From Sycon ciliatum (Eukaryota > Porifera > Calcarea > Leucosolenida > Sycettidae), in the NCBI RefSeq assembly GCF_964019385.1, contig NC_088654.1:18496657-18560656 (forward strand): a stretch of DNA of 64,000 nt. Direction: 5' to 3'. How positions within the stretch are numbered: position 1 is the stretch's first letter; the number at the start of each line of letters is the position of its first letter. Both the position numbers and the translations under genes were made by a program. Positions 1,563 to 61,145 of the stretch are shown here, one piece after another. The notes beneath the pieces were generated by a model that was given only the letters and a program-made list of their open reading frames with translations, did no database searches and was not told the DNA's origin.

Positions 1563-1773
1563 CAGTAGCGTCTACACTGTCAATGTCACTAGTGTCAGTA
1601 GTAGCCTGACACTGTCAGGCTGTGTAGCTACTGCACATAGGTCACTTCAACTTCAAGGACAAGGACTTACTGTATAAGTACAAAGTCTTCTTTGGTGGTC
1701 TCCTTATTAATCCAGGGTTATTTGTCTGGAAATAGCATTCCTTGGTGCTGGTTTCAGTGGTCTTCTAGGACAG

Positions 1774-4700
1774 GTGGTCGCCTTATCCGAGTTGTTGTTT
1801 GTTTATTTAGAGTCGAATGGTCGCCTTATCCGAGTGGTCGCCTTATCCGAGTTGTTGTTTGTTTATTTAGAGTCAAATGGTCGCCTTATCCGAGTGGTCG
1901 CCTTATCCGAGTTGTTGTTTGTTTATTTAGAGTCGAATGGTCGCCTTATCCGAGTGGTCGCCTTATCCGAGTTGTTGTTTGTTTATTTAGAGTCGAATGG
2001 TCGCCTTATCCGAGTGGTCGCCTTATCCGAGTTGTTGTTTGTTTATTTAGAGTCGAATGGTCGCCTTATCCGAGTGGTCGCCTTATCCGAGTTGTTGTTT
2101 GTTTATTTAGAGTCGAATGGTCGCCTTATCCGAGTGGTCGCCTTATCCGAGTTGTTGTTTGTTTATTTAGAGTCCAATGGTCGCCTTATCCGAGTGGTCG
2201 CCTTATCCGAGTTGTTGTTTGTTTATTTAGAGTCAAATGGTCGCCTTATCCGAGTGGTCGCCTTATCCGAGTTGTTGTTTGTTTATTTAGAGTCGAATGG
2301 TCGCCTTATCCGAGTGGTCGCCTTATCCGAGTTGTTGTTTGTTTATTTAGAGTCCAATGGTCGCCTTATCCGAGTGGTCGCCTTATCCGAGTTGTTGTTT
2401 GTTTATTTAGAGTCAAATGGTCGCCTTATCCGAGTGGTCGCCTTATCCGAGTTGTTGTTTGTTTATTTAGAGTCAAATGGTCGCCTTATCCGAGTGGTCG
2501 CCTTATCCGAGTTGTTGTTTGTTTATTTAGAGTCAAATGGTCGCCTTATCCGAGTGGTCGCCTTATCCGAGTTGTTGTTTGTTTATTTAGAGTCAAATGG
2601 TCGCCTTATCCGAGTGGTCGCCTTATCCGAGTTGTTGTTTGTTTATTTAGAGTCGAATGGTCGCCTTATCCGAGTGGTCGCCTTATCCGAGTTGTTGTTT
2701 GTTTATTTAGAGTCGAATGGTCGCCTTATCCGAGTGGTCGCCTTATCCGAGTTGTTGTTTGTTTATTTAGAGTCGAATGGTCGCCTTATCCGAGTGGTCG
2801 CCTTATCCGAGTTGTTGTTTGTTTATTTAGAGTCCAATGGTCGCCTTATCCGAGTGGTCGCCTTATCCGAGTTGTTGTTTGTTTATTTAGAGTCAAATGG
2901 TCGCCTTATCCGAGTGGTCGCCTTATCCGAGTTGTTGTTTGTTTATTTAGAGTCGAATGGTCGCCTTATCCGAGTGGTCGCCTTATCCGAGTTGTTGTTT
3001 GTTTATTTAGAGTCAAATGGTCGCCTTATCCGAGTGGTCGCCTTATCCGAGTTGTTGTTTGTTTATTTAGAGTCAAATGGTCGCCTTATCCGAGTGGTCG
3101 CCCTATCCGAGTTGTTGTTTGTTTATTTAGAGTCAAATGGTCGCCTTATCCGAGTGGTCGCCTTATCCGAGTTGTTGTTTGTTTATTTAGAGTCAAATGG
3201 TCGCCTTATCCGAGTGGTCGCCTTATCCGAGTTGTTGTTTGTTTATTTAGAGTCAAATGGTCGCCTTATCCGAGTGGTCGCCTTATCCGAGTTGTTGTTT
3301 GTTTATTTAGAGTCAAATGGTCGCCTTATCCGAGTGGTCGTCTTATCCGAGTTGTTTGTTTATTTAGAGTCAAATGGTCGCCTTATCCGAGTGGTCGCCT
3401 TATCCGAGTTGTTGTTTGTTTATTTAGAGTCGAATGGTCGCCTTATCCGAGTGGTCGCCTTATCCGAGTTGTTGTTTGTTTATTTAGAGTCGAATGGTCG
3501 CCTTATCCGAGTGGTCGCCTTATCCGAGTTGTTGTTTGTTTATTTAGAGTCAAATGGTCGCCTTATCCGAGTGGTCGCCTTATCCGAGTTGTTGTTTGTT
3601 TATTTAGAGTCGAATGGTCGCCTTATCCGAGTGGTCGCCTTATCCGAGTTGTTGTTTGTTTATTTAGAGTCGAATGGTCGCCTTATCCGAGTGGTCGCCT
3701 TATCCGAGTTGTTGTTTGTTTATTTAGAGTCGAATGGTCGCCTTATCCGAGTGGTCGCCTTATCCGAGTTGTTGTTTGTTTATTTAGAGTCGAATGGTCG
3801 CCTTATCCGAGTGGTCGCCTTATCCGAGTTGTTGTTTGTTTATTTAGAGTCGAATGGTCGCCTTATCCGAGTGGTCGCCTTATCCGAGTTGTTGTTTGTT
3901 TATTTAGAGTCGAATGGTCGCCTTATCCGAGTGGTCGCCTTATCCGAGTTGTTGTTTGTTTATTTCGAGTCAAATGGTCGCCTTATCCGAGTGGTCGCCT
4001 TATCCGAGTTGTTGTTTGTTTATTTAGAGTCAAATGGTCGCCTTATCCGAGTGGTCGCCTTATCCGAGTTGTTGTTTGTTTATTTAGAGTCAAATGGTCG
4101 CCTTATCCGAGTGGTCGCCTTATCCGAGTTGTTGTTTGTTTATTTAGAGTCAAATGGTCGCCTTATCCGAGTGGTCGCCTTATCCGAGTTGTTGTTTGTT
4201 TATTTAGAGTCAAATGGTCGCCTTATCCGAGTGGTCGCCTTATCCGAGTTGTTGTTTGTTTATTTAGAGTCGAATGGTCGCCTTATCCGAGTGGTCGCCT
4301 TATCCGAGTTGTTGTTTGTTTATTTAGAGTCGAATGGTCGCCTTATCCGAGTGGTCGCCTTATCCGAGTTGTTGTTTGTTTATTTAGAGTCAAATGGTCG
4401 CCTTATCCGAGTGGTCGCCTTATCCGAGTTGTTGTTTGTTTATTTAGAGTCGAATGGTCGCCTTATCCGAGTGGTCGCCTTATCCGAGTTGTTGTTTGTT
4501 TATTTAGAGTCGAATGGTCGCCTTATCCGAGTGGTCGCCTTATCCGAGTTGTTGTTTGTTTATTTAGAGTCCAATGGTCGCCTTATCCGAGTGGTCGCCT
4601 TATCCGAGTTGTTGTTTGTTTATTTAGAGTCAAATGGTCGCCTTATCCGAGTGGTCGCCTTATCCGAGTGGTCGCCTTATCCGAGTTGTTGTTTGTTTAT

Positions 4701-5910
4701 TTAGAGTCAAATGGTCGCCTTATCCGAGTGGTCGCCTTATCCGAGTTGTTGTTTGTTTATTTAGAGTCAAATGGTCGCCTTATCCGAGTGGTCGCCCTAT
4801 CCGAGTTGTTGTTTGTTTATTTAGAGTCAAATGGTCGCCTTATCCGAGTGGTCGCCTTATCCGAGTTGTTGTTTGTTTATTTAGAGTCAAATGGTCGCCT
4901 TATCCGAGTGGTCGCCTTATCCGAGTTGTTGTTTGTTTATTTAGAGTCAAATGGTCGCCTTATCCGAGTGGTCGCCTTATCCGAGTTGTTGTTTGTTTAT
5001 TTAGAGTCAAATGGTCGCCTTATCCGAGTGGTCGCCTTATCCGAGTTGTTGTTTCTTTATTTAGAGTCAAATGGTCGCCTTATCCGAGTGGTCGCCTTAT
5101 CCGAGTTGTTGTTTGTTTATTTAGAGTCGAATGGTCGCCTTATCCGAGTGGTCGCCTTATCCGAGTTGTTGTTTGTTTATTTAGAGTCGAATGGTCGCCT
5201 TATCCGAGTGGTCGCCTTATCCGAGTTGTTGTTTGTTTATTTAGAGTCGAATGGTCGCCTTATCCGAGTGGTCGCCTTATCCGAGTTGTTGTTTGTTTAT
5301 TTAGAGTCAAATGGTCGCCTTATCCGAGTGGTCGCCTTATCCGAGTTGTTGTTTGTTTATTTAGAGTCGAATGGTCGCCTTATCCGAGTGATCGCCTTAT
5401 CCAAGTTGTTGTTTGTTTATTTAGAGTCAAATGGTCGCCTTATCCGAGTGGTCGCCTTATCCGAGTTGTTGTTTGTTTATTTAGAGTCAAATGGTCGCCT
5501 TATCCGAGTGGTCGCCTTATCCGAGTTGTTGTTTGTTTATTTAGAGTCCAATGGTCGCCTTATCCGAGTGGTCGCCTTATCCGAGTTGTTGTTTGTTTAT
5601 TTAGAGTCAAATGGTCGCCTTATCCGAGTGGTCACCTTATCCGAGTTATTGTTTGTTTATTTAGAGTCGAATGGTCGCCTTATCCGAGTGGTCGCCTTAT
5701 CCGAGTTGTTGTTTGTTTATTTAGAGTCAAATGGTCGCCTTATCCGAGTGGTCGCCTTATCCGAGTTGTTGTTTGTTTATTTAGAGTCGAATGGTCGCCT
5801 TATCCGAGTGGTCGCCTTATCCGAGTTGTTGTTTGTTTATTTAGAGTCAAATGGTCGCCTTATCCGAGTGGTCGCCTTATCCGAGTGGTCGCCTTATCCG
5901 AGTGGTCGCC
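1774..5910. repeat. 60-bp satellite array, about 68 units
   Basis: The unit contains the 18-mer GTGGTCGCCTTATCCGAG in two tandem parts, followed by a TTGTTGTTTGTTTATTTAGA spacer and GTC-AA with a variable base. Variation is very low. One spacer base alternates between A, G and C, one unit near 3350 lacks 3 bp, and extra 18-mers occur near 4660 and at the right edge. The 18-mer is the inner sequence of the transposon TIR. The 60-bp period is divisible by three and stop-free in several frames, so long open frames here are artefacts and not genes. Confidence 0.97.
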
Positions 5911-5995
5911 TTGACAGACTTTACTGTACTATGTCATATACCTTATTCTAACGAGGAGAAAATTCGATTTCCGTATAACGATTTAATCGTTATAC

Positions 5996-9433: not shown

Positions 9434-10684
9434 CTAGAATTTCACACACAGTGCGTCCGTGACATGCGAGTGTTTTCTTCGCGACCGCCGCCTGCTTCTT
9501 TTCCATCCGCTCGCACGTTTCCGGACGGCCAGCCAGTCTAGAGCCATCTGGCGCTGAGCCTGGCTGTGAAGCTTGATCGGATGCGCGAACACGAGATCGG
9601 CGCTACTCCGCACATGCGTCTCCACGTCCCTGAAGCGCTCCTGAGCGTCGGCCGACCAGGAATAGTAGGCCGGTGCGATCATGATGTTATCGATTCCCGC
9701 CGACATCAGCATGAAGATGCTCGGGATCGCGTACTCAAAGAAGATGTCCCTGAAGATGTGGGCCAGCATCAGAAATTCAGAGCACCGCCCACGTGGTATG
9801 TAGCCAGAGTCAGACACGCCCTTACGCAGGCAGCTACTGCATCCCAGGGACGCATCCAGATGCCACCCGTAGGCGGCGGGCAGGTCGCGCATGATCTGAA
9901 CGGCCACCACGCGCCCCTCCGGCTCGTTCCAGTGCGAACTGTTCTTGCGGTCGCACTCCGGTCGCGTGACGTTGTGCACACAGTACTTCTCCACGTCGGG
10001 CCCGGCCAGCACTAGCTTGTGCTGGTTGACCAGCGCCAGCAGCCGGTAGTGATTCATCAGGACGTCGTCGCCCAGCCACACGTAGCCGTCAAAGTCAGGG
10101 TGCGTGCGGATGGCGTGGCTTATCGCGCGCTGCTGGTAGAACCCCCTGGACATGTCCACACCGTGCACGCCGCGGTCTGTGTCCGCTGCGTCCGCATAGA
10201 ACACTATGCTGGCAAAGCCGTCGCCGTACATTCCCTCCAGTATGGCAATATTGCCCGGGAAGTAGTGGTTGAAAATCACAATCAACAGAATGCGTCGGCA
10301 GCTGGCACTAGCATTATTGCTGCTACTGCCACTGATTACTATGTTACCACCCGTTATGTCGGGGACAGGATGTTGCACTGTGTTGCTGTGGTCGTCAGTT
10401 GTGCCTGTAATCCTGGCACTACCAGTATCGGAGGTAGTAGTAGTAGTAGATCTACTGAGCGTAGGAGGGTAGGAGCGTGGTGGCCTCAGTATTTCATGTA
10501 GAGCTACAATATCGCTGGTCAGAGGAGGGTGGGAGGGTGCTGGACTTAAAACCACATTTCTGATCCTGAACGCCAGCGAAGTCAGCACGAGTGCAACCAC
10601 CAACACCAATGCCCATGATTTGCGCAGTCGCCAGTTTTTCAGCTGGGTCCAGGCACTGCGTAGAAAGGAATTTGTCCACGCCAT
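9434..10684 (-). CDS. Putative type II membrane glycosyltransferase-like protein, paralogue 1
   Basis: This is a single uninterrupted 416-residue frame. A short basic N-terminus ending RLRK precedes one hydrophobic segment (about residues 24-41), the signal-anchor layout of Golgi type II proteins. A Ser/Thr-rich stem (about 75-128) leads to a folded domain starting RRILLIVIFNHYFPG. The acidic motif GYVWLGDDVLMN (about 200-211) resembles the DxD-type metal and nucleotide-sugar site of glycosyltransferases. Sequons NAS, NVT and NSS and a CSSC pair suit a lumenal domain. The C-terminus is Lys/Arg-rich. No introns or frameshifts are seen. I cannot assign donor or acceptor. The enzyme class is inference from topology and motif; it could be a catalytically dead relative. 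The nearly identical paralogue lies about 33.7 kb away. Confidence 0.75.
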   Translation of the reverse strand: MAWTNSFLRSAWTQLKNWRLRKSWALVLVVALVLTSLAFRIRNVVLSPAPSHPPLTSDIVALHEILRPPRSYPPTLSRSTTTTTSDTGSARITGTTDDHSNTVQHPVPDITGGNIVISGSSSNNASASCRRILLIVIFNHYFPGNIAILEGMYGDGFASIVFYADAADTDRGVHGVDMSRGFYQQRAISHAIRTHPDFDGYVWLGDDVLMNHYRLLALVNQHKLVLAGPDVEKYCVHNVTRPECDRKNSSHWNEPEGRVVAVQIMRDLPAAYGWHLDASLGCSSCLRKGVSDSGYIPRGRCSEFLMLAHIFRDIFFEYAIPSIFMLMSAGIDNIMIAPAYYSWSADAQERFRDVETHVRSSADLVFAHPIKLHSQAQRQMALDWLAVRKRASGWKRSRRRSRRKHSHVTDALCVKF

Positions 10685-18530: not shown

Positions 18531-19009
18531 TCTTTTGTTTTTTTCTGTCACCAATCAATGGAATGCCCTTATGTAAATGATGGCCTTCATATCATATCAA
18601 TACCGTATTATACGCATTGATGTGCAAGCCTTTTCTTGCAGAAAATGGCACTATTGTAGCATTATAATTCTGCTGGGGAAACATGTGGTTAGTGGTGGTG
18701 ATACTTTTTTTATACGCAGGTCATTCTGTGCATGTTGCTGTTGCAGCATTTCATGACCGTCACAAAATTGTCTTGCCTTCCAGATATTTCAAATTTCCCC
18801 ACCCTCGATCAGATTTACTTGTGAAATGTAGCCAGGTGCGTGTCGCAGATGTTTTTGTTGATTCTGTGTTTATAATTGTTTATTTACAGCTAACCATGCT
18901 TATGCAATCAACGGGTTTCCGCCACCTTGCAGTTGATTTTCCCCATTTCTCTCCTCATCAATCCCTACTTGTCTTTGTACATTATTATTATTATTATTAT
19001 TATTATTAA
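18531..19009. repeat. Family R downstream block ending in (ATT)n
   Basis: This corresponds to about 14450-14840 and 55014-55470. It ends in an ATT run at about 18986-19008 that joins the ribozyme-bearing repeat. No gene is seen. Confidence 0.6.
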
Positions 19010-19258
19010 AAGTAGAAGGGAAAAGGGCATATGGAAAGGAGTCAAGAGTAACTTTCCACCACTGTAACTAGATACTATATACAGGACGTGTCAGGACGTC
19101 GAATGTCTCAGTACTCTGTCAGTTTTGTGCCTAGTTGTTGCACTTTCTGACTGTATATAGTATCTAGTTACAGTGGTGGAGAGTTACTCTTGACTCCTTT
19201 CCATATGCCCTTTTCCTTTCTACTTTTATTATTGGCTCAATACCCGAGTTTCCAATCG

Positions 19259-19307
19259 CACACCTGATGAGCCGTCACGAACCATATGGCGAAACGTACG
19301 TCGTGTG
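19259..19307 (+). ncRNA. Hammerhead ribozyme-like motif, unit 1
   Basis: In order: stem I strand CACAC, core CTGATGA, stem II GCC...GGC, core GAAA, a minimal stem III CGTACG, the cleavage triplet GTC, then the stem I partner GTGTG. All core nucleotides of a type I hammerhead are present in the right order. Very short stem III is typical of hammerheads in PLEs and retrozymes, which often act as tandem pairs. Self-cleavage after GTC (19302) would release 591-nt monomers. Activity is inferred, not shown. Confidence 0.72.
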
Positions 19308-19849
19308 AAACAACTTGTTTTGTAGTCAACTAGTCCATCACAATGTCATGCATGAGGAGTACTGTAGGAGTTTAGATTTCGGCTTGTACAATTCGTTCTC
19401 GCAAAGCTTCCCCCTTCTTAACTATCTTTGATATTTTTGACCCGCCCAAGTTGGGTGGTGTGCTGCTTTGCTGCTTAGAATTGTAGTTAGACCGCTTTGT
19501 CAAATCGCCTACTGGTCTCGTCATCGTCCAGTGACAATCGACATTCTTTGTTCCGTTGGGACTGTAGCTTGTGCTCGTTTTCGTTGCGCTTGCCTTCCCC
19601 TCTTTGGTCTTTCCATAACCTTGAACCTTCCAAGTTGGAAGGCTGTCGGTTAGCGCTACGGAGATGTGTTGAAGCTAGGTGTCAGGACGTCGAATGTCTC
19701 AGTACTCTGTCAGTTTTGTGCCTAGTTGTTGCACTTTCTGACTGTATATAGTATCTAGTTACAGTGGTGGAAAGTTACTCTTGACTCCTTTCCATATGCC
19801 CTTTTCCTTTCTACTTTTATTATTGGCTCAATACCCGAGTTTCCAATTG

Positions 19850-19898
19850 CACACCTGATGAGCCGTCACGAACCATATGGCGAAACGTACGTCGTGTG
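19850..19898 (+). ncRNA. Hammerhead ribozyme-like motif, unit 2
   Basis: Exactly 591 bp downstream of the first, with the same core, stems and GTC triplet. A 5'-truncated third example (CGGCGAAACGTACGTCGTGT) begins near 51534. Confidence 0.72.
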
Positions 19899-20500
19899 AA
19901 ACAACTTGTTTTGTAGTCAACTAGTCCATCACAATGTCATGCATGAGGAGTACTGTAGGAGTTTAGATTTCGGCTTGTACAATTCGTTCTCGCAAAGCTT
20001 CCCCCTTCTTAACTATCTTTGATATTTTTGACCCGCCCAAGTTGGGTGGTGTGCTGCTTTGCTGCTTAGAATTGTAGTTAGACCGCTTTGTCAAATCGCC
20101 TACTGGTCTCGTCATCGTCCAGTGACAATCGACATTCTTTGTTCCGTTGGGACTGTAGCTTGTGCTCGTTTTCGTTGCGCTTGCCTTCCCCTCTTTGGTC
20201 TTTCCATAACCTTGAACCTTCCAAGTTGGAAGGCTGTCGGTTAGCGCTACGGAGATGTGTTGAAGCTAGGTGTCAGGACGTCGAATGTCTCAGTACTCTG
20301 TCAGTTTTGTGCCTAGTTGTTGCACTTTCTGACTGTATATAGTATCTAGTTACAGTGGTGGAAAGTTACTCTTGACTCCTTTCCATATGCCCTTTTCCTT
20401 TCTACTTTTATACTTGGCTCAATACCCGAGTTTCCAATTATTATTATTATTCAAAGGATCAGTCGGGGAAGTGAACTGCCTGAAAAGAGAAAAAAACGCC

Positions 20501-20571
20501 AGACCCACCAGGACTCGAACCTGGGACCCTGCTTGTCATGAGCAATGCTCTAACCACTGAGCTATGGGACC
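20501..20571 (-). tRNA. tRNA-like gene 1 (anticodon loop lacks U33)
   Basis: A 71-nt cloverleaf can be drawn. The acceptor GGTCCCA pairs with TGGGTCT with one T-T mismatch and one wobble. The D stem is GCTC/GAGC, the anticodon stem TTGCT/AGCAG, and the T stem CCAGG/CCTGG with loop TTCGAGT. The anticodon loop is CATGACA, which puts A where U33 is almost invariant; the nominal anticodon would be TGA. Internal A-box (TAGCTCAGTGG) and B-box (GGTTCGAGTCC) are good. A run of seven T six bases downstream is a Pol III terminator. It could be an unusual tRNA, a tRNA pseudogene or a SINE head. Confidence 0.6.
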
Positions 20572-20806
20572 AGGCTGAACCTAGAAGGCGCTGACAAGTT
20601 TTTCACTCCAAAGGCAGCTCACAACACGTGCCACACATACTGATGGCACTTGGGTCTTTTTCCCTCCCCCAGGGGACCAACCACGGTCAGTTTCTGGAAA
20701 CTACCAGAGGTGAAAGAAAGTGATTAAATTTGTAAAGGTTTGGGAGAACTTCAAATTCAAAGGATCAGTCGGGGAAGTGAACTGCCTGAAAAGAGAAAAA
20801 AACGCC

Positions 20807-20877
20807 AGACCCACCAGGACTCGAACCTGGGACCCTGCTTGTCATGAGCAATGCTCTAACCACTGAGCTATGGGACC
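20807..20877 (-). tRNA. tRNA-like gene 2
   Basis: Identical by eye to gene 1, 306 bp away, with the same downstream T run. Confidence 0.6.
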
Positions 20878-21112
20878 AGGCTGAACCTAGAAGGCGCTGA
20901 CAAGTTTTTCACTCCAAAGGCAGCTCACAACACGTGCCACACATACTGATGGCACTTGGGTCTTTTTCCCTCCCCCAGGGGACCAACCACGGTCAGTTTC
21001 TGGAAACTACCAGAGGTGAAAGAAAGTGATTAAATTTGTAAAGGTTTGGGAGAACTTCAAATTCAAAGGATCAGTCGGGGAAGTGAACTGCCTGAAAAGA
21101 GAAAAAAACGCC

Positions 21113-21183
21113 AGACCCACCAGGACTCGAACCTGGGACCCTGCTTGTCATGAGCAATGCTCTAACCACTGAGCTATGGGACC
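21113..21183 (-). tRNA. tRNA-like gene 3
   Basis: Same sequence and spacing as its neighbours in the minus-strand block. Confidence 0.6.
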
Positions 21184-21418
21184 AGGCTGAACCTAGAAGG
21201 CGCTGACAAGTTTTTCACTCCAAAGGCAGCTCACAACACGTGCCACACATACTGATGGCACTTGGGTCTTTTTCCCTCCCCCAGGGGACCAACCACGGTC
21301 AGTTTCTGGAAACTACCAGAGGTGAAAGAAAGTGATTAAATTTGTAAAGGTTTGGGAGAACTTCAAATTCAAAGGATCAGTCGGGGAAGTGAACTGCCTG
21401 AAAAGAGAAAAAAACGCC

Positions 21419-21489
21419 AGACCCACCAGGACTCGAACCTGGGACCCTGCTTGTCATGAGCAATGCTCTAACCACTGAGCTATGGGACC
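21419..21489 (-). tRNA. tRNA-like gene 4, nearest the inversion point
   Basis: Last unit of the minus block. Its 5' leader ends abruptly at about 21530, where the plus block begins in the middle of a spacer. Confidence 0.6.
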
Positions 21490-21729
21490 AGGCTGAACCT
21501 AGAAGGCGCTGACAAGTTTTTCACTCCAAAGACTGATCCTTTGAATTTGAAGTTCTCCCAAACCTTTACAAATTTAATCACTTTCTTTCACCTCTGGTAG
21601 TTTCCAGAAACTGACCGTGGTTGGTCCCCTGGGGGAGGGAAAAAGACCCAAGTGCCATCAGTATGTGTGGCACGTGTTGTGAGCTGCCTTTGGAGTGAAA
21701 AACTTGTCAGCGCCTTCTAGGTTCAGCCT

Positions 21730-21800
21730 GGTCCCATAGCTCAATGGTTAGAGCATTGCTCATGACAAGGAGGGTCCCAGGTTCGAGTCCTGGTGGGTCT
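21730..21800 (+). tRNA. tRNA-like gene 5, decayed copy
   Basis: First unit of the plus block and the most changed. The A-box reads TCAATGG instead of TCAGTGG, and a C-to-G change at 21770 breaks one anticodon-stem pair. It is probably inactive. Confidence 0.5.
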
Positions 21801-22035
21801 GGCGTTTTTTTCTCTTTTCAGGCAGTTCACTTCCCCGACTGATCCTTTGAATTTGAAGTTCTCCCAAACCTTTACAAATTTAATCACTTTCTTTCACCTC
21901 TGGTAGTTTCCAGAAACTGACCGTGGTTGGTCCCCTGGGGGAGGGAAAAAGACCCAAGTGCCATCAGTATGTGTGGCACGTGTTGTGAGCTGCCTTTGGA
22001 GTGAAAAACTTGTCAGCGCCTTCTAGGTTCAGCCT

Positions 22036-22106
22036 GGTCCCATAGCTCAGTGGTTAGAGCATTGCTCATGACAAGCAGGGTCCCAGGTTCGAGTCCTGGT
22101 GGGTCT
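22036..22106 (+). tRNA. tRNA-like gene 6
   Basis: Consensus sequence; the T run follows at about 22111. Confidence 0.6.
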
Positions 22107-22341
22107 GGCGTTTTTTTCTCTTTTCAGGCAGTTCACTTCCCCGACTGATCCTTTGAATTTGAAGTTCTCCCAAACCTTTACAAATTTAATCACTTTCTTT
22201 CACCTCTGGTAGTTTCCAGAAACTGACCGTGGTTGGTCCCCTGGGGGAGGGAAAAAGACCCAAGTGCCATCAGTATGTGTGGCACGTGTTGTGAGCTGCC
22301 TTTGGAGTGAAAAACTTGTCAGCGCCTTCTAGGTTCAGCCT

Positions 22342-22412
22342 GGTCCCATAGCTCAGTGGTTAGAGCATTGCTCATGACAAGCAGGGTCCCAGGTTCGAGT
22401 CCTGGTGGGTCT
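22342..22412 (+). tRNA. tRNA-like gene 7
   Basis: Consensus sequence, 306 bp from the preceding unit. Confidence 0.6.
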
Positions 22413-22647
22413 GGCGTTTTTTTCTCTTTTCAGGCAGTTCACTTCCCCGACTGATCCTTTGAATTTGAAGTTCTCCCAAACCTTTACAAATTTAATCACT
22501 TTCTTTCACCTCTGGTAGTTTCCAGAAACTGACCGTGGTTGGTCCCCTGGGGGAGGGAAAAAGACCCAAGTGCCATCAGTATGTGTGGCACGTGTTGTGA
22601 GCTGCCTTTGGAGTGAAAAACTTGTCAGCGCCTTCTAGGTTCAGCCT

Positions 22648-22718
22648 GGTCCCATAGCTCAGTGGTTAGAGCATTGCTCATGACAAGCAGGGTCCCAGGT
22701 TCGAGTCCTGGTGGGTCT
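22648..22718 (+). tRNA. tRNA-like gene 8
   Basis: Consensus gene. Its terminator has six T instead of seven, which accounts for the one 305-bp interval. Confidence 0.6.
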
Positions 22719-22952
22719 GGCGTTTTTTCTCTTTTCAGGCAGTTCACTTCCCCGACTGATCCTTTGAATTTGAAGTTCTCCCAAACCTTTACAAATTTAA
22801 TCACTTTCTTTCACCTCTGGTAGTTTCCAGAAACTGACCGTGGTTGGTCCCCTGGGGGAGGGAAAAAGACCCAAGTGCCATCAGTATGTGTGGCACGTGT
22901 TGTGAGCTGCCTTTGGTGTGAAAAACTTGTCAGCGCCTTCTAGGTTCAGCCT

Positions 22953-23023
22953 GGTCCCATAGCTCAGTGGTTAGAGCATTGCTCATGACAAGCAGGGTCC
23001 CAGGTTCGAGTCCTGGTGGGTCT
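22953..23023 (+). tRNA. tRNA-like gene 9
   Basis: Consensus gene. The leader has one A-to-T change (TTTGGTGTG) near 22917. Confidence 0.6.
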
Positions 23024-23258
23024 GGCGTTTTTTTCTCTTTTCAGGCAGTTCACTTCCCCGACTGATCCTTTGAATTTGAAGTTCTCCCAAACCTCTACAA
23101 ATTTAATCACTTTCTTTCACCTCTGGTAGTTTCCAGAAACTGACCGTGGTTGGTCCCCTGGGGGAGGGAAAAAGACCCAAGTGCCATCAGTATGTGTGGC
23201 ACGTGTTGTGAGCTGCCTTTGGAGTGAAAAACTTGTCAGCGCCTTCTAGGTTCAGCCT

Positions 23259-23329
23259 GGTCCCATAGCTCAGTGGTTAGAGCATTGCTCATGACAAGCA
23301 GGGTCCCAGGTTCGAGTCCTGGTGGGTCT
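23259..23329 (+). tRNA. tRNA-like gene 10
   Basis: Last unit. The spacer after it stops at an ATT run at about 23407. Confidence 0.6.
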
Positions 23330-23424
23330 GGCGTTTTTTTCTCTTTTCAGGCAGTTCACTTCCCCGACTGATCCTTTGAATTTGAAGTTCTCCCAAACCT
23401 TTACAAATTATTATTATTATTATT

Positions 23425-23670
23425 ATTTGAAACTCGGATGTTGAGCCATAAATAAATGTAGAAGAGAAAAGGACATAATTTATGGATACGAGTTAAGAGT
23501 AACTATCCATCACTGTAACATGATACTATATACAGTCAGAAATGTTTCAGTACACTGTCAGTTTTGTGCCTAGTTATTGCACTTTCTGACTGTATATAGT
23601 ATCATGTTACAGTGATGGATAGTTACTCTTAACTCGTATCCATATGTCCTTTTCTCTTCTACATTATTAT
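23425..23670. repeat. Family Y terminal hairpin between ATT runs
   Basis: The arms (GTAGAAGAGAAAAGGACAT, and the ACTGTAACATGATACTATAT block) are mirrored across about 23535-23575. This is a diverged short version of the end of the ribozyme-bearing element and lacks the ribozyme core. Confidence 0.75.
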
Positions 23671-23774
23671 TATTATTTTTTTTTTTAAAGAGGTCGGAGG
23701 CGGATAATACTTTAAAACGAAGGTAAGTTATGGGTCGCAAATATCCACGCAAACACACATCCAGTCATAATAAG

Positions 23775-25228
23775 GCACTTGTCATAAGTATCCGAACGTT
23801 TTCGGTCCCTTCTCATCAAGGATTATACAGGGAATGGCTCAAGCTGGAAAGACTAAAACTTATATAGCGTAAAGATAATTAGATAACAACACTCGTGACA
23901 ATGTGGAAAATTATCAAGTTTAGCACGACACAAAACTCGAAGGAAAATAATAATAGTGACAACAACATAGTGAGCAAATTAAGTTACATTGTTACCACCT
24001 CGACGAGGAGTAACACCAAACAATTGTAGCTAACACATTTTCTTTCTGTACGCAAAGTTCAGGATCTAATTTACGGATATACAAAGCTTCTAACACAGCC
24101 AAATGTAACGCACATCTACCACGTGACAATATTGAGAAAACATTATCACTGTACAACTCACGACAATTGGTACGGGCTGACAGATGTTGCTTGATTGACG
24201 AAGTGCGATTCTTAGCTCCATTGGGTGTTGTCTCCTCCAATGTCCCGTCATCTCGCCTCTTCGTGGCATCACCACTATCTGTCTCAAAAAAAAAATGTGC
24301 TGTCCAGTCCATCGGTGGATCTTCCTCTTCCCGTGAAGATGTGACTGCATGCCCGTCCTCCTCTGCGTGTGTAGGACACGGGCCAGCTGAGAACAGCATA
24401 AAAGATGGTGAAAGACCCACACGTAAAGCACCGAAACTGACAAAGGATCTGTCGGCGTCGGAAAGGGTGACGAGAAGCCAAGTGAAAATACGGACTGATG
24501 AGGACGAACGTACAACGACAACGGAAGTGACAACAACAGTTAATATTCGAAAACGTGGTAGACCACGAAAACTAACCTCAATATCGGACACCGGACAAGT
24601 TGGAGTAAGAAGCTCAATAGAAATCCGCAATGGAGGAGACGTAACGGAAAGGACACCGGGTATCGCGCACCCAACGGTTAGTGTCAAGAAACGTGGAAGG
24701 CCGCGGAAACGCGAAGAGACAGATAGTGGTGATGCCACGAAGAGGCGAGATGACGGGACATTGGAGGAGACAACACCCAATGGAGCTAAGAATCGCACTT
24801 CGTCAATCAAGCAACATCTGTCAGCCCGTACCAATTGTCGTGAGTTGTACAGTGATAATGTTTTCTCAATATTGTCACGTGGTAGATGTGCGTTACATTT
24901 GGCTGTGTTAGAAGCTTTGTATATCCGTAAATTAGATCCTGAACTTTGCGTACAGAAAGAAAATGTGTTGTCGCTACAATTGTTTGGTGTTACTCCTCGT
25001 CGAGGTGGTAACAATGTAACTTAATTTGCTCACTATGTTGTTGTCACTATTATTATTTTCCTTCGAGTTTTGTGTCGTGCTAAACTTGATAATTTTCCAC
25101 ATTGTCACGAGTGTTGTTATCTAATTATCTTTACGCTATATAAGTTTTAGTCTTTCCAGCTTGAGCCATTCCCTGTATAATCCTTGATGAGAAGGGACCG
25201 AAAACGTTCGGATACTTATGACAAGTGC
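23775..25228 (+). mobile_element. Folded-back Penelope-like element remnant A
   Basis: About 511 bp at 23775-24285 is the inverse of 24716-25228, with only a few differences. The plus-oriented part (24286-25228) carries the 3' end of a PLE protein and a 3' UTR. The minus-oriented part repeats its 3' end. Severe 5' truncation and an attached inverted partial copy are common in PLE insertions. The 3' UTR contains CTTGATGAG and GAAAACG blocks that could be a decayed hammerhead. An ATT run abuts the right border. Confidence 0.7.
24286..25024 (+). pseudogene. PLE A protein C-terminus: AT-hooks plus second half of GIY-YIG nuclease
   Basis: The frame has two AT-hook motifs (RKRGRPRK and KKRGRPRK) in a Thr/Ser/Glu-rich stretch. 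It then has KQHLSARTNC, a YSDNVFSILSRGR stretch and LEALYIRKLDPELCVQKENV, ending at a TAA at 25022-25024. The last block is the C-terminal half of the GIY-YIG endonuclease of Penelope-like elements, including the conserved Glu in LEA. The catalytic GIY-YIG half and the reverse transcriptase are missing, so this is a truncated gene. Confidence 0.65.
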
Positions 25229-25252
25229 ATTATTATTATTATTATTATTTTT

Positions 25253-25498
25253 TGCTCGTTTTCGTTGCGCTTGCCTTCCCCTCTTTGGTCTTTTCCACAA
25301 CCTTGAACCTTCCAAGTTGGAAGGCTGTCGGTTAGCGCTACTGAGATGTGTTGAAGCTAGGTGTCAGGACGTCGAATGTCTCAGTACTCTGTCAGTTTTG
25401 TGCCTAGTTATTGCACTTTCTGACTGTATAAAGTATCATGTTACAGTGATGGAGAGTTACTCTTAACTCGCATCCATAATGTCTCTTTCCTTTCTACA
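25253..25498 (+). repeat. Family Y fragment
   Basis: This matches the 3' part of the 591-bp unit (from CTCGTTTTCGTTGCGCTTGC) plus the right end, again between ATT runs. It is truncated upstream of the ribozyme. Confidence 0.8.
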
Positions 25499-26432
25499 AT
25501 TATTATTATTATTATTATTATTATTAAATTTTTGATAGGGCAATCCCCACAGGCCTAAGGCCTTTTACATACTAGTAGTAGTACTGTTCTTTCAATCAAA
25601 TGAACCCATCGATAGGCACATTGCCTTTGGGTCATTTCATAATAATAATAATAATCATGGGTTATCGTGATAAGGTCATCCTGCATCATATTGCACTGAA
25701 ATCGTAATCCTGTTGATGTCGATACAACTTTTGGAAGTAGTTCAATGACTTCAAACTGTTAGTCCACGATTTTCTAAAACAACACAGCAAAGGAGGAACA
25801 ATAAACATGTATTAAAATGTAAACAAATACATTGTGGAGTCCGGTACCTCGTTCCAACAACTACACTGATCCTGAGGATAAAAGGGGCAAGGCCATTGGA
25901 GGTTGGAGGTCATTATTATCAAATTGTCAAATTTTTGATAGGGCAATCCCGCAGGCCTAAGGCCTTCTTACAGGGTACCCTGGAGGTACTGAGAGATAAA
26001 CAAGGCACTCCATAATAATAAAATGTTACACATCTTTTTGGCGTGAGTATGAATGATATCCAGTCGAACCTCTTTAGGACGAACACCAAGGGACCGATGG
26101 TTTTATTCTGTGAGTTTGTCTTAACCTATTTTATAACCAGTGAATACATTTCTCCAATAGACATACGAATAGATTTTTTCTACAGCGAAAGATTCTAAGC
26201 CACACCGACTCGTCTCGTATGGAACAAATGAGTCACTGAACCTTTCTTTAGCAACGTGCATGATCCGAAAAGCCAACAACAAAAAGTCTGCAATGCACAC
26301 GCATGCGGCCAGCCGGCCGCGCGATGGTACGAGCGTAGGCCATGGAGCAGCTCCCTGGTCCAGGACCAGGTACCGAGCATCTTACGTAGAAACTTACGTA
26401 GCTACGTAGACAAAGATTAAGTGTCTGAATAG
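25499..26432. repeat. Family R copy 3, left part, with LINE-tail blocks
   Basis: After an ATT run come two short blocks (TTTTTGATAGGGCAATCC, then AGGCCTAAGGCCTT) that recur at 25930 and 55830 and look like retroelement 3' ends. Family R sequence runs from 25646. No gene is seen. Confidence 0.6.
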
Positions 26433-43140: not shown

Positions 43141-44391
43141 CTAGAATTTCACACACAGTGCGTCCGTGACATGCGAGTGTTTTCTTCGCGACCGCCGCCT
43201 GCTTCTTTTCCATCCGCTCGCACGTTTCCGGACGGCCAGCCAGTCTAGAGCCATCTGGCGCTGAGCCTGGCTGTGAAGCTTGATCGGATGCGCGAACACG
43301 AGATCGGCGCTACTCCGCACATGCGTCTCCACGTCCCTGAAGCGCTCCTGAGCGTCGGCCGACCAGGAATAGTAGGCCGGTGCGATCATGATGTTATCGA
43401 TTCCCGCCGACATCAGCATGAAGATGCTCGGGATCGCGTACTCAAAGAAGATGTCCCTGAAGATGTGGGCCAGCATCAGAAATTCAGAGCACCGCCCACG
43501 TGGTATGTAGCCAGAGTCAGACATGCCCTTACGCAGGCAGCTACTGCATCCCAGGGACGCATCCAGCTGCCACCCGTAGGCGGCGGGCAGGTCGCGCATG
43601 ATCTGAACGGCCACCACGCGCCCCTCCGGCTCGTTCCAGTGTGAACTGTTCTTGCGGTCGCACTCCGGTCGCGTGACGTTGTGCACACAGTACTTCTCCA
43701 CGTCGGGCCCGGCCAGCACTAGCTTGTGCTGGTTGACCAGCGCCAGCAGCCGGTAGTGATTCATCAGGACGTCGTCGCCCAGCCACACGTAGCCGTCAAA
43801 GTCAGGGTGCGTGCGGATGGCGTGGCTTATCGCGCGCTGCTGGTAGAACCCCCTGGACATGTCCACACCGTGCACGCCGCGGTCTGTGTCCGCTGCGTCC
43901 GCATAGAACACTATGCTGGCAAAGCCGTCGCCGTACATTCCCTCCAGTATGGCAATATTGCCCGGGAAGTAGTGGTTGAAAATCACAATCAACAGAATGC
44001 GTCGGCAGCTGGCACTAGCATTATTGCTGCTACTGCCACTGATTACTATGTTACCACCCGTTATGTCGGGGACAGGATGTTGCACTGTGTTGCTGTGGTC
44101 GTCAGTTGTGCCTGTAATCCTGGCACTACCAGTATCGGAGGTAGTAGTAGTAGATCTACTGAGCGTAGGAGGGTAGGAGCGTGGTGGCCTCAGTATTTCA
44201 TGTAGAGCTACAATATCGCTGGTCAGAGGAGGGTGGGAGTGTGCTGGACTTAAAACCACATTTCTGATCCTGAACGCCAGCGAAGTCAAGAAGACGAGTG
44301 CAACCACCAACACCAATGCCCATGATTTGCGCAGTCGCCAGTTTTTCAGCTGGGTCCAGGCACTGCGTAGAAAGGAATTTGTCCACGCCAT
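43141..44391 (-). CDS. Putative type II membrane glycosyltransferase-like protein, paralogue 2
   Basis: A 416-residue frame nearly identical to that at 9434-10684. Two indels, both three bases, change one residue each: an added Phe in the membrane segment and one fewer Thr in the stem. Three substitutions were noted by eye: Pro to His in the stem, His to Gln after YGW, and Val to Met after RKG. The GYVWLGDDVLMN motif, Cys residues and sequons are unchanged. Both copies therefore stay open with only in-frame changes. Whether both are expressed cannot be judged. The three insertions in this copy of the duplication all fall outside the gene. Confidence 0.75.
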   Translation of the reverse strand: MAWTNSFLRSAWTQLKNWRLRKSWALVLVVALVFLTSLAFRIRNVVLSPAHSHPPLTSDIVALHEILRPPRSYPPTLSRSTTTTSDTGSARITGTTDDHSNTVQHPVPDITGGNIVISGSSSNNASASCRRILLIVIFNHYFPGNIAILEGMYGDGFASIVFYADAADTDRGVHGVDMSRGFYQQRAISHAIRTHPDFDGYVWLGDDVLMNHYRLLALVNQHKLVLAGPDVEKYCVHNVTRPECDRKNSSHWNEPEGRVVAVQIMRDLPAAYGWQLDASLGCSSCLRKGMSDSGYIPRGRCSEFLMLAHIFRDIFFEYAIPSIFMLMSAGIDNIMIAPAYYSWSADAQERFRDVETHVRSSADLVFAHPIKLHSQAQRQMALDWLAVRKRASGWKRSRRRSRRKHSHVTDALCVKF

Positions 44392-44913
44392 GGCAGGCTT
44401 CGTCCAGTCAAGTTCTCAGCAGCTGCAGCTAATTCGGAGCCTGGTTATTTGTTGCACGCGCCGATGCGTGTGGCCTTTCGCCGTCACGTTCATCTTGGTG
44501 TAGCTCTGAGCTACTGATTAGAGCTGGAAAAACTTGTCTTTACTCTAAGAAGAGCCTGATATCAAGAGGACTAGAGGGAAGGCTTGTAGAGCAACAAAAC
44601 ATACTAATATTGTAATAATTATTAATTTTAGCAATGAAAAGTATGAATGCCGCAGACATCACCACGCAACATGACAATTTGTTCAAGGTTTGGTTTTGTG
44701 TGTTTCCAAAATCGATTTTCACGTTCCGATCATCAGTGGAAATACGGAACTAAAGAGATCAAGGGAAAAACAAAGGTTAAAAATCCAAAGAAGTGTGACA
44801 CATGACGGGTAACTTGTGGTAAGTTTTACAAAAAGTGAGAACTAAAATACAGAGTAAGTGTGACAAACGGGCATGAACAGTGCAGAAACAACTCATGAAC
44901 ACGGGGTGCAAAC

Positions 44914-46195
44914 TCACGAAAATAACCTAAGTGCTAAAACATGTTCTTTTTGCTTACACAAATCGGGCTTATGCGTACGAATACAAACAGCTTCAAGGAC
45001 CTTCAACTGCTGGACATAACGGGCACGACACAGTACAGAGAAGTGGGAATCATCATACACACTCAAACAATCGGGACGAGATAACAAATGCAAATACACA
45101 GCTGACTTCTTACGAATTTCACCCTCATCAGCTCCATCACCTTCCCTGCCACCTGACTCCTCCTCGTCCGTTTTATCACCATCACCACCAGCCGTCTCAC
45201 CGTCATCCGCCTCGTCTTCATCCGCCGCCTCGTCATCACCCGCCTCGTCGTCATCTGTATCCTCGCCGTCATCCGCCTCGTCGTCATCTGTATTCTCGTC
45301 ATCCGCCGCATCATCACCCAACTCATATTCACCACCAGTCAGTCGTCTGATACCATCCATGTTCTCCTTCCTACGTCTGTCCCGTGTCACTGTCTTTACC
45401 TCATCTACGTCCCGAGATTGTGTTCCGTTTTGCCCCCGGCTTCCGGTCTCCTTCGATGCTCCGCGTGGGCCTTGGCCATTCCTAGCATATATTTCGGTTG
45501 AATAATTGGCGGTCGACCTCCGTGGTCTCTGGACCCACGGATCAAGCGCCGGAGGGTGCTTCGGTGTCCGCACAGCCGGATACTGTGTCAAAGAAATGGG
45601 CTCAATGTCTGTGATTGGCGGTACTGTTGTTGTTGCCGACTCCTCCCAAACCCCAGCCACCAACGGCACTGGTGGTGGCTCCGGTGGCGGCAAGGGCAAC
45701 GGTGGAGAAGGCACATTCGGTTGGCTTAGTGATCCACCACTCTTCCTCTGCACCGTGTGTTCGACTTGCTCTGGTTGTGTCGGTGGTAGAGGGAGCGGGT
45801 TCTTGCGTGGTCTTCCCCGCTTCGGGCGCTTCGCTTTTGCTGCGTCCGGCAGCATGTGAAGTGGTACATGCTGCTTGATACGTGCGCTCAGGTGTTGAAG
45901 GGTCCTACCAACGTACCGGCTATCACAATTCCGGCACTCAAATTGGTAGACCAAGTGGCTCAATAGGTGGGATGGTAGGACATCCTTCCTCACCGTGAAC
46001 GCACGTATCGTAGTGAACACAGGGATGAAGTGCGCCGCAAAGTATGTTTGTGTAACTAGCGTTTTGATTGTGCGGCACAATGTCTGTGATGCCTCTCCTT
46101 TCCAAGGTAAGGAAAGGTAGACTGGGCAACGACTTGGACCAATGATGACGACCTTTGGTTTTGATGCTGATTTTAGTAGCTTGTTTAGCAGTTCC
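44914..46195 (-). pseudogene. PLE B protein: RT end, GIY-YIG nuclease split by AT-hook/acidic insert
   Basis: In one open frame: CPVYLSLPWKGE and FTTIRAFTVRKDVLP (post-RT linker), then LVYQFECRNCDSRYVGRTLQ and HLSARIKQH, the GIY-YIG start with its Cys pair. An AT-hook KRGRPRK, a Pro-rich stretch and a long Asp/Glu-rich stretch follow (about 290 residues in all). Then SAVYLHLLSRPDC, a YDDSHFSVLCRAR stretch and LKVLEAVCIRTHKPDLCKQ, the second half of the nuclease, ending at 44914. In other PLEs I know these halves lie closer together. The reverse transcriptase core is missing. Confidence 0.75.
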
Positions 46196-46196
46196 T

Positions 46197-46780
46197 CCGA
46201 AATATATGCTAGGAATGGCCAAGGCCCACGCGGAGCATCGAAGGAGACCGGAAGCCGGGGGCAAAACGGAACACAATCTCGGGACGTAGATGAGGTAAAG
46301 ACAGTGACACGGGACAGACGTAGGAAGGAGAACATGGATGGTATCAGACGACTGACTGGTGGTGAATATGAGTTGGGTGATGATGCGGCGGATGACGAGA
46401 ATACAGATGACGACGAGGCGGATGACGGCGAGGATACAGATGACGACGAGGCGGGTGATGACGAGGCGGCGGATGAAGACGAGGCGGATGACGGTGAGAC
46501 GGCTGGTGGTGATGGTGATAAAACGGACGAGGAGGAGTCAGGTGGCAGGGAAGGTGATGGAGCTGATGAGGGTGAAATTCGTAAGAAGTCAGCTGTGTAT
46601 TTGCATTTGTTATCTCGTCCCGATTGTTTGAGTGTGTATGATGATTCCCACTTCTCTGTACTGTGTCGTGCCCGTTATGTCCAGCAGTTGAAGGTCCTTG
46701 AAGCTGTTTGTATTCGTACGCATAAGCCCGATTTGTGTAAGCAAAAAGAACATGTTTTAGCACTTAGGTTATTTTCGTGA
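46197..46780 (+). pseudogene. Inverted partial copy of the PLE B C-terminus
   Basis: This repeats the acidic stretch and the second nuclease half of the minus-strand copy with no difference that I can see in the protein. Near-identity of the arms suggests that both formed in one event or are kept alike by conversion. Confidence 0.8.
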
Positions 46781-47208
46781 GTTTGCACCCCGTGTTCATG
46801 AGTTGTTTCTGCACTGTTCATGCCCGTTTGTCACACTTACTCTGTATTTTAGTTCTCACTTTTTGTAAAACTTACCACAAGTTACCCGTCATGTGTCACA
46901 CTTCTTTGGATTTTTAACCTTTGTTTTTCCCTTGATCTCTTTAGTTCCGTATTTCCACTGATGATCGGAACGTGAAAATCGATTTTGGAAACACACAAAA
47001 CCAAACCTTGAACAAATTGTCATGTTGCGTGGTGATGTCTGCGGCATTCATACTTTTCATTGCTATTATTAAACTTTTATCTCCACGTAGATTATTTGTT
47101 TATTAATTTTTATTTGTTATAAAGTCGGCGAGCCAGCTAGCTGCGAGTTTGAGTACCGAGTACGATTCGTACCAAGGCAAAAGCACATAATTCTGTCATT
47201 AGTAGTAT

Positions 47209-56929: not shown

Positions 56930-58309
56930 CTAGTCATTGTAGCGAGCAGGGCGTTGCAGGTCAGCTCTGCTTCGGAGGTTGCGAGCGGGCTCTTCATCAG
57001 TGGCAGTTGGTGGGTCGAAGTCGACGCTCATAGCCATATCAGTCTCAGGATCGTTGTCATGCTGCTCGACATTGGCATCCAAACATGCACCATCTTCGGA
57101 GCCATTGGAATCTCGCTTGAGGAGATCGACGTTCACAGTCTTCTCAGCTCCAGAGGTTTGATGACGAATGACGACAGTGGATGCACTGACGATGTCACGA
57201 ACACGCCAGCCACGCTCGTATGGTACAGAACGCTTCTGCCGTCGTTCAGGACGTCGCAACATCACTGCATCGCCAGGACTATACAGGCATAGTACGTTAA
57301 CATCAGGACTATCGCCGCTCGATAACTCTTCTTCAATCAGATTGCGGATAGCCGCGGATCTCTGTGCAAGCTTGTCTACCCATGCACTTGCAGACATCGT
57401 GCCGTTGGCAATGGGTGACTCAACAATGAACCTTGCTGGCTGCCATCCGACCATGGCTTCCATTGGCGATAGATGGGTTGCCGAGTGGGGTCTGTTAAGA
57501 TAGTAGAAGAGCAGGGTACGGAGATCAGACTTCCAGTCGGATGAGTATTCAAGGACCTTCCGGATCAATCCAATCAGGGTGCGGTTTGCCCTCTCCGCTG
57601 CGCCTTGGGATTGTGGGTGTCTCACAGCACCTGTGCGTACTCTGACTCCAAGTGACTGAAAGAGTGACTCGACGACTGCATTCGCGAACTCTGTTCCATT
57701 GTCACATCGCACAACATCAGGGGCACCCCACATCTGGCAGACCTGCACAAATGCACTGGCGACTGAAGCAGCATCATGACGACGAAGGGGTACCACTTCA
57801 ATCCACTTCATGAATGCATCCACACACATCAGTACACAGTGGTAATCATTCGTGCCATCCGAACCCAACTCCAGGGTATCGATGACAACTTCAGACCATG
57901 GGCGGCAAGGAATATCAGGGCGAGTAGCTGCAATAGCGGGTGCTCTGCTTGGGTTAGCTGCTACACACTGCCCGCAATTCGCAACATACGCTTCACAAGC
58001 AGCAGCGATCTTCGGGAAATAACATCGACTGCGGATCATCTCATACATAGTCGACCATGACGCATGTCCTGAGTTGGTATGCGTTACATACAGCACTTTC
58101 CGTACGAGAGCAGCTGGGATAACAGGGACTTGTTTAACGCCGTCTAGTGGCAGCTTGAGGCTGCGATACAGCACGCCATCTTGCACCACCAGCTGAGAGC
58201 GAACTCTTGCGTAGGACTCATCGACAGGCAGATCATGCTGTATACCATGTATCACTGCTTCGACTACGTCATCTTTCAGCTGTGATGCCTTGATACTCTC
58301 TAGCGTCAC
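56930..58309 (-). CDS. Gypsy integrase (pol 3' part)
   Basis: A 459-codon frame. The zinc-binding HHCC region is visible as HTNSGH...CGQC (about residues 75-115). The DDE core has D in VVIDTLELG, D in VRCDNGTEF and E in QGAAERANRTL, the last being the usual integrase signature. A C-terminal domain follows with PGDAVMLRRPERR and a basic/acidic tail; no chromodomain is evident. The GTG first codon overlaps the TGA ending the RNase H frame, but the frame is open farther upstream and reads sensibly (SKNPPSNGVT, VIGPVTLESI). The two parts therefore belong to one polyprotein joined by a -1 shift between about 58350 and 58430. Whether this is a mutation or programmed shift is unclear. Confidence 0.85.
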   Translation of the reverse strand: MTLESIKASQLKDDVVEAVIHGIQHDLPVDESYARVRSQLVVQDGVLYRSLKLPLDGVKQVPVIPAALVRKVLYVTHTNSGHASWSTMYEMIRSRCYFPKIAAACEAYVANCGQCVAANPSRAPAIAATRPDIPCRPWSEVVIDTLELGSDGTNDYHCVLMCVDAFMKWIEVVPLRRHDAASVASAFVQVCQMWGAPDVVRCDNGTEFANAVVESLFQSLGVRVRTGAVRHPQSQGAAERANRTLIGLIRKVLEYSSDWKSDLRTLLFYYLNRPHSATHLSPMEAMVGWQPARFIVESPIANGTMSASAWVDKLAQRSAAIRNLIEEELSSGDSPDVNVLCLYSPGDAVMLRRPERRQKRSVPYERGWRVRDIVSASTVVIRHQTSGAEKTVNVDLLKRDSNGSEDGACLDANVEQHDNDPETDMAMSVDFDPPTATDEEPARNLRSRADLQRPARYND

Positions 58310-61113: not shown

Positions 61114-61127
61114 TCTCTGAATCAAAC

Positions 61128-61145
61128 TCCCGGGTTTCGGCACCA
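61128..61145 (-). other. Primer binding site, tRNA-Phe
   Basis: In element sense TGGTGCCGAAACCCGGGA is complementary to 18 nt at the 3' end of animal tRNA-Phe including CCA. It lies 6 nt inside the 5' LTR. Confidence 0.85.

Follow-up and report, generated by a model that had tools for sequence, protein, structure and literature searches.

A 591-bp hammerhead-bearing repeat in the calcareous sponge Sycon ciliatum: retrozyme anatomy and insertions resembling those of Penelope-like elements

Metazoan retrozymes without long terminal repeats (LTRs) have been described in coral, mussel and axolotl. They are small non-coding tandem repeats with a type I hammerhead ribozyme in each unit, a GC content below 50%, many dispersed copies and target duplications longer than the 4 bp of plant retrozymes; Penelope-like elements (PLEs) are present in the same genomes and are regarded, on circumstantial grounds, as strong candidates for the helper (Cervera & de la Pena 2020, PMC7229834). 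According to a 2020 review, the repeats of metazoan retrozymes carry no conserved motif that would reveal the mobilizing retrotransposon (PMC7761336), and according to a 2022 guide retrozymes may rely on PLEs (PMC8969392). The present analysis concerns a 591-bp repeat in a 64-kb stretch of the Sycon ciliatum genome (NC_088654.1, positions 18,496,657 to 18,560,656; hereafter the window). The repeat shares these properties of metazoan retrozymes. It is a retrozyme by anatomy, lies beyond the published size range and has PLE-like insertions, but is not itself a PLE. Plant LTR retrozymes are also comparable, being non-autonomous, hammerhead-bearing and 600-800 nt long with a proposed circular RNA intermediate, but their hammerheads are of type III, and they possess LTRs as well as a tRNA primer site that links them to Gypsy-type machinery (Cervera et al. 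2016, PMC4918200).

PLEs with pseudo-LTRs, such as A. vaga Pen (PMC3846280) and Anolis Poseidon PAc (PMC11167929), resemble the 591-bp insertions in several ways: an inverted copy lies head-to-head, a tail of 30-40 bp may be present, the target duplication is short, targets are AT-rich or ATT, reverse transcription starts internally and copies occur in tandem; PAc, in addition, has a hammerhead. Rotifer PLEs display inverted copies with a 31-bp tail optionally on one of them, and duplications of 8-10 bp in the cases quoted (PMC3846280). The purified lizard PLE cuts both strands, most often at ATT, and extends both; its reverse transcriptase (RT) starts at two adjacent internal sites, which accounts for the 30-40-bp genomic tail (PMC11167929).

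In the window, one insertion of the repeat lies between two (ATT)n runs. Its parts are as follows (coordinates are positions within the window):

18981..19008, no strand: (ATT)9 microsatellite, the left target flank
19008..19084, minus strand: inverted arm, ending at the 'short' site (unit position 591, CTACTTTT in RNA sense)
19088..19227, plus strand: 5'-truncated first unit of the plus arm, unit positions 452-591
19228..19818, plus strand: full unit 1, 591 bp
19258..19308, plus strand: type I hammerhead motif of unit 1, from Rfam Hammerhead_1 and the core pattern, predicted cut after 19302
19819..20409, plus strand: full unit 2, 591 bp
19849..19899, plus strand: type I hammerhead motif of unit 2, from Rfam Hammerhead_1 and the core pattern, predicted cut after 19893
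20410..20438, plus strand: 29-nt 'tail' that takes the plus arm on to the 'long' site at unit position 29
20437..20451, no strand: (ATT)n, the right target flank, common to this insertion and the next

The two full units, each with a hammerhead motif as the earlier note had described, differ by a single base. The inverted terminal piece and ATT borders that it had reported are likewise present, at 19008-19084 and at 18981-19008 and from 20437, respectively. Plus and minus arms meet head-to-head at 19084/19088. An inverted-repeat tool pairs 19004-19084 with 19151-19231 and with 19742-19822, and 19007-19084 with 20333-20410. The unit has a GC content of 0.45. Its longest ATG frame, with the unit circularized, is 50 codons, and no RT or GIY-YIG reading frame is found in it. 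As the unit lacks an RT/endonuclease frame, which is a difference from PLEs, it is not filed as an autonomous PLE, and the view that it depends on another element stands, with the link to PLEs strengthened by copies genome-wide. The related claim that no RT is present needs a qualification: a scan of window frames revealed no PLE RT domain, but a PLE fragment (44622-47095), a fragment that is PLE-like by eye (23690-25236) and an LTR-type element (56930-61146) do lie in the window.

The hammerhead core pattern, CTGATGA-N(6-30)-GAAACGTACGTC, occurs in the window only at 19264-19302 and 19855-19893 (mean of 0.00 in 100 shuffles). Core, stem II and a minimal stem III are complete in both units, stem I is formed by the CACAC/GTGTG pairing proposed earlier, and the motif predicts cuts at the same positions as before, after 19302 and 19893. 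A single-sequence fold of 19243-19322 displays a CGAGTT/AACTTG pairing past an internal loop, without the hammerhead stem III. The covariance model suggested as a check, Rfam Hammerhead_1, aligns full-length in both units (26.0 bits each, E 0.0013), but below the gathering score of 34, and for this reason the default Rfam scan of the window lists no hammerhead. The low score is probably explained by the longer stem II loop; a 352-bp sister family in the same genome has a short stem II and passes the cut-off with 35.4 bits.

Searches of the 538-Mb assembly yield 1102 + 1100 exact matches (2,202) to the core pattern, spread over several families, and 0 + 0 to the reversed pattern. The 51-nt hammerhead stretch has 1303 genome sites with at most three mismatches, 975 of them exact, vs 3823 sites, 1777 exact, for one control 51-mer of the unit nearer the short end; copies within an array are not independent here, and those too truncated to hold the ribozyme enter the control only. 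The smaller number of ribozyme sites would fit 3'-anchored copies with frequent 5' truncation, and the greater exact fraction would fit selection on the ribozyme. Mutations of the core in most genomic copies, which the earlier note had named as a refutation, were not seen: the core is intact in most copies sampled. A core count of 0/570 vs 288/15906 is biased, as some arrays were picked by the exact core pattern.

Further tandem copies, another of the proposed checks, are plentiful: the 591-bp unit gave 168 genome matches from 40 scored of 1907 candidates. For the anatomy of insertions, 34 merged loci were examined, from which 34 rows no shorter than 300 bp were obtained: 24 from a close subfamily, and 10 (<96% identity) that were dropped. 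The insertions are not plain tandems. They are mostly head-to-head concatemers in which the RNA 3' ends face outward and truncated 5' heads meet. Single inserts with one minus run followed by one plus run make up 20 of the 24 rows; outside this class are L070, one L080 row, L026/L077 and L030, of which L030 and L070 were resolved by eye into four inserts. In the 20 simple inserts the heads meet with anything between a 27-nt overlap and a 54-nt gap, and 17 of the junctions are within 10 nt. When the first 100 places listed for a unit segment were inspected, 16/16 pairs of oppositely oriented neighbours within 1.2 kb of each other were head-to-head; among the listed ribozyme places, 6/7 were.

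The outer ends of the inserts are fixed. The short end is at unit position 580-591, and the long end lies some 30 nt beyond it, at 22-32. Of the 20 simple inserts, 17 combine a long end with a short one; none has two alike, and in three one or both ends are elsewhere. The same combination was read by eye in four diverged-subfamily arrays picked by the ribozyme pattern alone (L032, L054, L055, L059) and in the four inserts of the composite arrays L030 and L070, for a total of 25/25 among inserts whose ends are both fixed, 17 of them scored by script and 8 by eye. L040 and L060 have a single fixed end each, and L077 is a single arm with the long end only. Ranking by similarity could hide short/short arrays, and the pattern-selected arrays thus weigh more for the asymmetry of the ends. 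A count in which the long-ended arm is longer in 16/17 arrays was not used, because the ranking query began near the long end and favoured long-ended arms; in L042, picked by the ribozyme pattern, the long-ended arm is not the longer one. The repeat does not have the traits of a terminon, which is giant in size, sits at telomeres and bears telomere repeats at its 3' end: the unit is 591 bp, and the copies inspected are scattered over many interior positions within large contigs, with AT-rich flanks.

The flanks of the 591-bp arrays are 80% AT. ATTATT or AATAAT is present within the 30-nt flank in 15/22 rows (one locus counted twice), vs 8% of 2000 random window pairs. Target duplications were sought in the 12 rows that lack these motifs in their flanks. 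The five with two fixed ends (L066-L069, L074) share 12-15 bp, and the other seven, none with both ends correctly at fixed sites, share 3-6 bp; in 132 mispaired flank controls the shared length is at most 10. Five more arrays, in AT-rich sites, share 12-14 bp (L028, L042, L062, L073, L078). The 591-bp insertions therefore carry 12-15-bp target duplications at AT-rich sites, often (ATT)n.

The make-up of the template was assessed in 22 arrays comprising 99 units or pieces. Variants present in every covering unit of an array number 22. Shuffling the units 200 times yields 0.5 on average, at most 7 and never 22. Of the 22 variants, 12 are covered in both arms, and 84 further variants are partial. 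With the window array left out, there are 15 array-wide variants vs a shuffle maximum of 3. Median divergence is 0.56% within arrays and 1.06% between arrays. Both arms thus usually seem to copy the same RNA sequence, which fits a single circle copied from both sides.

A resident PLE, termed here PLE-B, is represented in the window by one fragment:

44622..47095, no strand: PLE-B fragment, head-to-head, with 881-nt arms that are 100% complementary; includes a GIY-YIG frame at 44914-46335 (minus strand)

The GIY-YIG match of this frame in Pfam is weak and below the cut-off. With its protein as query, 92 genome matches were obtained from 90 scored of 11372 candidates; many are 97-100% identical, and they include head-to-head pairs and 3443-bp tandems. 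One of the loci, L081, encodes a 1092-codon frame with RVT_1 at its cut-off and GIY-YIG at 20.6 bits (cut-off 22.6), and has a repeat distance of 3442 bp. It also holds CTGATGATCGCAACGTGAAAATC, which by our own reading resembles a minimal PLE hammerhead; Rfam lists no hammerhead in L081 up to E = 5. By eye, the minus arm of L081 ends at CATTGCTATTATTA, the plus arm extends about 27 nt further, to GTAGATTATTT, and AAATAAAAAGCC flanks both sides as a 12-bp target duplication. The window copy, also read by eye, has short and long ends as in L081 and an 11-bp duplication, TTATTAATTTT. PLE-B is a young family with RT and GIY-YIG whose two examined copies display the same ends, 11-12-bp duplications and head-to-head layout. 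PLE-B and 591-bp retrozyme insertions carry the same scars, as read from the DNA of these two PLE-B copies. A difference is that the fixed ends of the 591-bp unit lie just 5' of the ribozyme core (on a linear map) and those of PLE-B lie 3' of its hammerhead-like motif. No solved structure matches the PLE protein by sequence. The PLE-B frame has an unusual acidic repeat (DDDEADDGE...) between the GIY-YIG domain and the C-terminus, found in L081 as well.

With high probability, the 591-bp repeat is a non-autonomous retrozyme, and PLE machinery that is primed on either side of the cut copies its RNA, probably a circle, into the genome. The matching scars argue strongly for mobilization in trans by a PLE. 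The architecture, the fixed ends, the target duplications and target preference, the arrays apparently copied from a single template, the greater exactness of the ribozyme stretch relative to one control and the same signature in two PLE copies are all seen in the sequence itself; cleavage, circularity, action in trans and the helper PLE family are the parts of the favoured reading that we infer. Read-through RNA of an array would be cut by the hammerheads into 591-nt units, and a host ligase might close these into circles. A Penelope-like RT/GIY-YIG protein, supplied in trans, would bind the retrozyme RNA and cut the two strands of an AT-rich site, often (ATT)n, with a stagger of about 12-15 bp. 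The cut ends would then prime reverse transcription, each side at its own fixed internal site on the RNA, with about 30 nt between the two sites. Both strands would circle the RNA from zero to several times and stop at a varying point, and the two cDNA heads would be joined in the middle of the insert. Concatemers formed by such two-sided priming and joining of heads would be head-to-head and flanked by a target duplication, with a short end on one side and a long end on the other. In the lizard PLE the two strands were not seen to differ in their start sites (PMC11167929), unlike the one-of-each pattern of the 591-bp inserts.

The retrozyme and Penelope interpretation of the earlier note is thus supported by the fixed ends, target duplications, head-to-head layout and matching scars in two PLE-B copies, and its likening of the borders to PLE insertions is strengthened by the genome-wide copies well beyond what the window alone offers. 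Its suggestion of an undescribed mobile unit needs to be narrowed. The class is known from metazoan retrozymes (PMC7229834), and what seems new is this 591-bp family and its insertion signature. In the main text of that paper the words 'inverted' and 'orientation' have 0 occurrences, and no mention of the head-to-head, single-tail layout was seen. No published report of this signature in retrozymes was found in a survey mostly at the level of titles and abstracts, with the 2014 paper on PLEs and hammerheads outside it.

Several observations weigh against the proposal. The unit is 591 nt, compared with a published 150-450 bp for metazoan retrozymes (PMC7229834), a range that is descriptive and not defining; the 352-bp sister family falls within it. 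The Hammerhead_1 score is below the gathering score, as given above, and the fold of 19243-19322 is no more stable than shuffles (z 0.07). In similarity-selected arrays, variation in the core is just weakly below that of the rest (1/696 vs 161/29430 cells). Hairpins in the tail are not significant. L026/L077, L063, L065, L080, L040 and L060 are composite, single-armed or without one fixed end, and one of the seven neighbour pairs in the ribozyme listing is tail-to-tail. No homology between retrozyme and PLE-B was noticed by eye, with no alignment search run. The 591-bp unit as a pseudo-LTR of PLE-B was rejected for lack of similarity, also by eye and with no formal search. In addition, homogeneous arrays could stem from a linear multimer of a homogeneous source array or from later homogenization.

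The first of these two sources of homogeneity leads to a different template. The same PLE machinery might copy a linear multimer, with a hammerhead that is weak or protein-dependent and most template RNA uncut. In vitro, mutating the ribozyme of the lizard PLE leaves insertion as efficient as before, and its main template has been suggested to be uncut RNA (PMC11167929); homogeneous source arrays would yield homogeneous daughters; and one array is spaced 592/596/592, while that at C9:9650691-9654751 has mixed unit lengths. Set against this are the more frequent exactness of the ribozyme stretch relative to the control stretch, the number of array-wide variants, far above chance, and the expression of related coral retrozymes as circles (PMC7229834). 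A linear template is considered rather unlikely.

It has been proposed that PLE palindromes arise by self-priming (PMC3846280), and the head-to-head shape might accordingly result from fold-back of a single cDNA in place of priming on both sides of the cut. Arm heads at a near-equal unit position occur in a few arrays (L061 at 202/196, L078 at 484/477), as might be expected of fold-back, but in many the two heads are far apart on the unit, and the purified PLE extends both strands (PMC11167929). Fold-back predicts an inverted arm that ends at the first cDNA start; the ends are about 30 nt apart in 25/25 inserts whose two ends are fixed. Self-priming is rejected as improbable.

Target-primed insertion with target duplications of this size is typical of long interspersed nuclear elements (LINEs), and a LINE-type retrotransposon, with an apurinic/apyrimidinic or a restriction-like endonuclease, might be thought to mobilize the unit with inversions like those of twin priming. 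Twin priming, however, starts the inverted piece at varied internal points and not at one fixed site. No element-derived poly(A) tail was seen at the insert ends inspected, and two resident PLE copies have the same scars. With fixed ends, no such tail seen and scars shared with a PLE, this origin is rejected as highly improbable. Ordinary satellite DNA, formed by unequal crossing-over or DNA rolling circle with an incidental hammerhead, would be tandem, homogeneous and non-coding as these repeats are, but is scarcely credible and is rejected on the target duplications, fixed ends, varying 5' truncation and head-to-head inserts at dispersed sites, which point to insertion by copying of RNA.

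Under the PLE-mobilized retrozyme reading, the insertion scars provide another kind of evidence on the helper, and the question can now be tested, given two mapped positions at which RT presumably starts and a young PLE in the same genome whose reading frame is open. The scars also bear on the puzzling inverted copies of PLEs, for which they favour priming on both sides of the cut over fold-back, and they draw attention to a tRNA-bearing satellite with similar marks.

This satellite adjoins the 591-bp insertion in the window, in a nest of five insertions (18981-25526) separated by (ATT)n: the 591 family, a tRNA array, a diverged 591 relative, a PLE-like fragment and a 591 fragment. The nest looks as if one microsatellite had been hit repeatedly. 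The four further members are:

20452..21531, minus strand: tRNA-bearing 306-bp array, minus arm of some 3.5 units whose short end abuts (ATT)n
21531..23409, plus strand: plus arm of the same array, some 6.1 units, whose long end abuts the next (ATT)n
23430..23663, no strand: short diverged 591-family relative, 82-89% identical, head-to-head, between (ATT)n runs
23690..25236, no strand: PLE-like fragment between (ATT)n runs, a C-terminal frame with GRPRK motifs, classed by eye
25250..25497, plus strand: 5'-truncated 591-family fragment ending at the short site

The PLE-like fragment has head-to-head arms at 23767-24285 and 24716-25236; a Pfam scan of its frame (23.7-25.2 kb) gave no match. The 306-bp unit contains a tRNA-like sequence (Rfam, 49.4 bits; anticodon TGA by ARAGORN), and no ribozyme family is listed for it up to E = 10. 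Genome-wide, scoring of 40 among 645 candidates gave 199 matches to it. One array was read; it has a minus-then-plus order between (ATT)n runs, with ends about 30 nt apart. Two arrays of the 352-bp ribozyme family, A352 (L043-L051 merged) and L031, have, by eye, target duplications and a pair of fixed ends separated by about 38-42 nt; in L038/L039 and L053 the pair of ends is not seen. It is tentatively suggested, as a possibility and not as the likelier case, that the PLE protein is a general copier in trans of small repeated or circular RNAs, and that at least three unrelated satellite families (the 591- and 352-bp hammerhead families and the 306-bp tRNA-like one) use two-site priming from both ends. 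If this were so, the 306-bp tandem template would arise by a route not yet described. The tails of the 591, 352 and 306 families and of L081 have, by eye, a C-rich stretch near the long end (TCTCCC, TACCC, TCTCCA), which is possibly a start signal for RT.

Elsewhere in the window, pieces of an LTR-type retroelement were detected with Pfam:

56930-61146, minus strand: LTR-type retroelement pieces with integrase and RNase H matches and weak zinc-knuckle and protease matches

An array of 60-bp units (GTGGTCGCCTTATCCGAG...) at 1774-5912 lies inside one open frame of 1,419 codons (1692-5951). Two frames of equal length, 416 codons, are found at 9434-10684 and 43141-44391, both on the minus strand, with no Pfam match and with similar 18-bp repeats alongside; these are possibly copies of one element.
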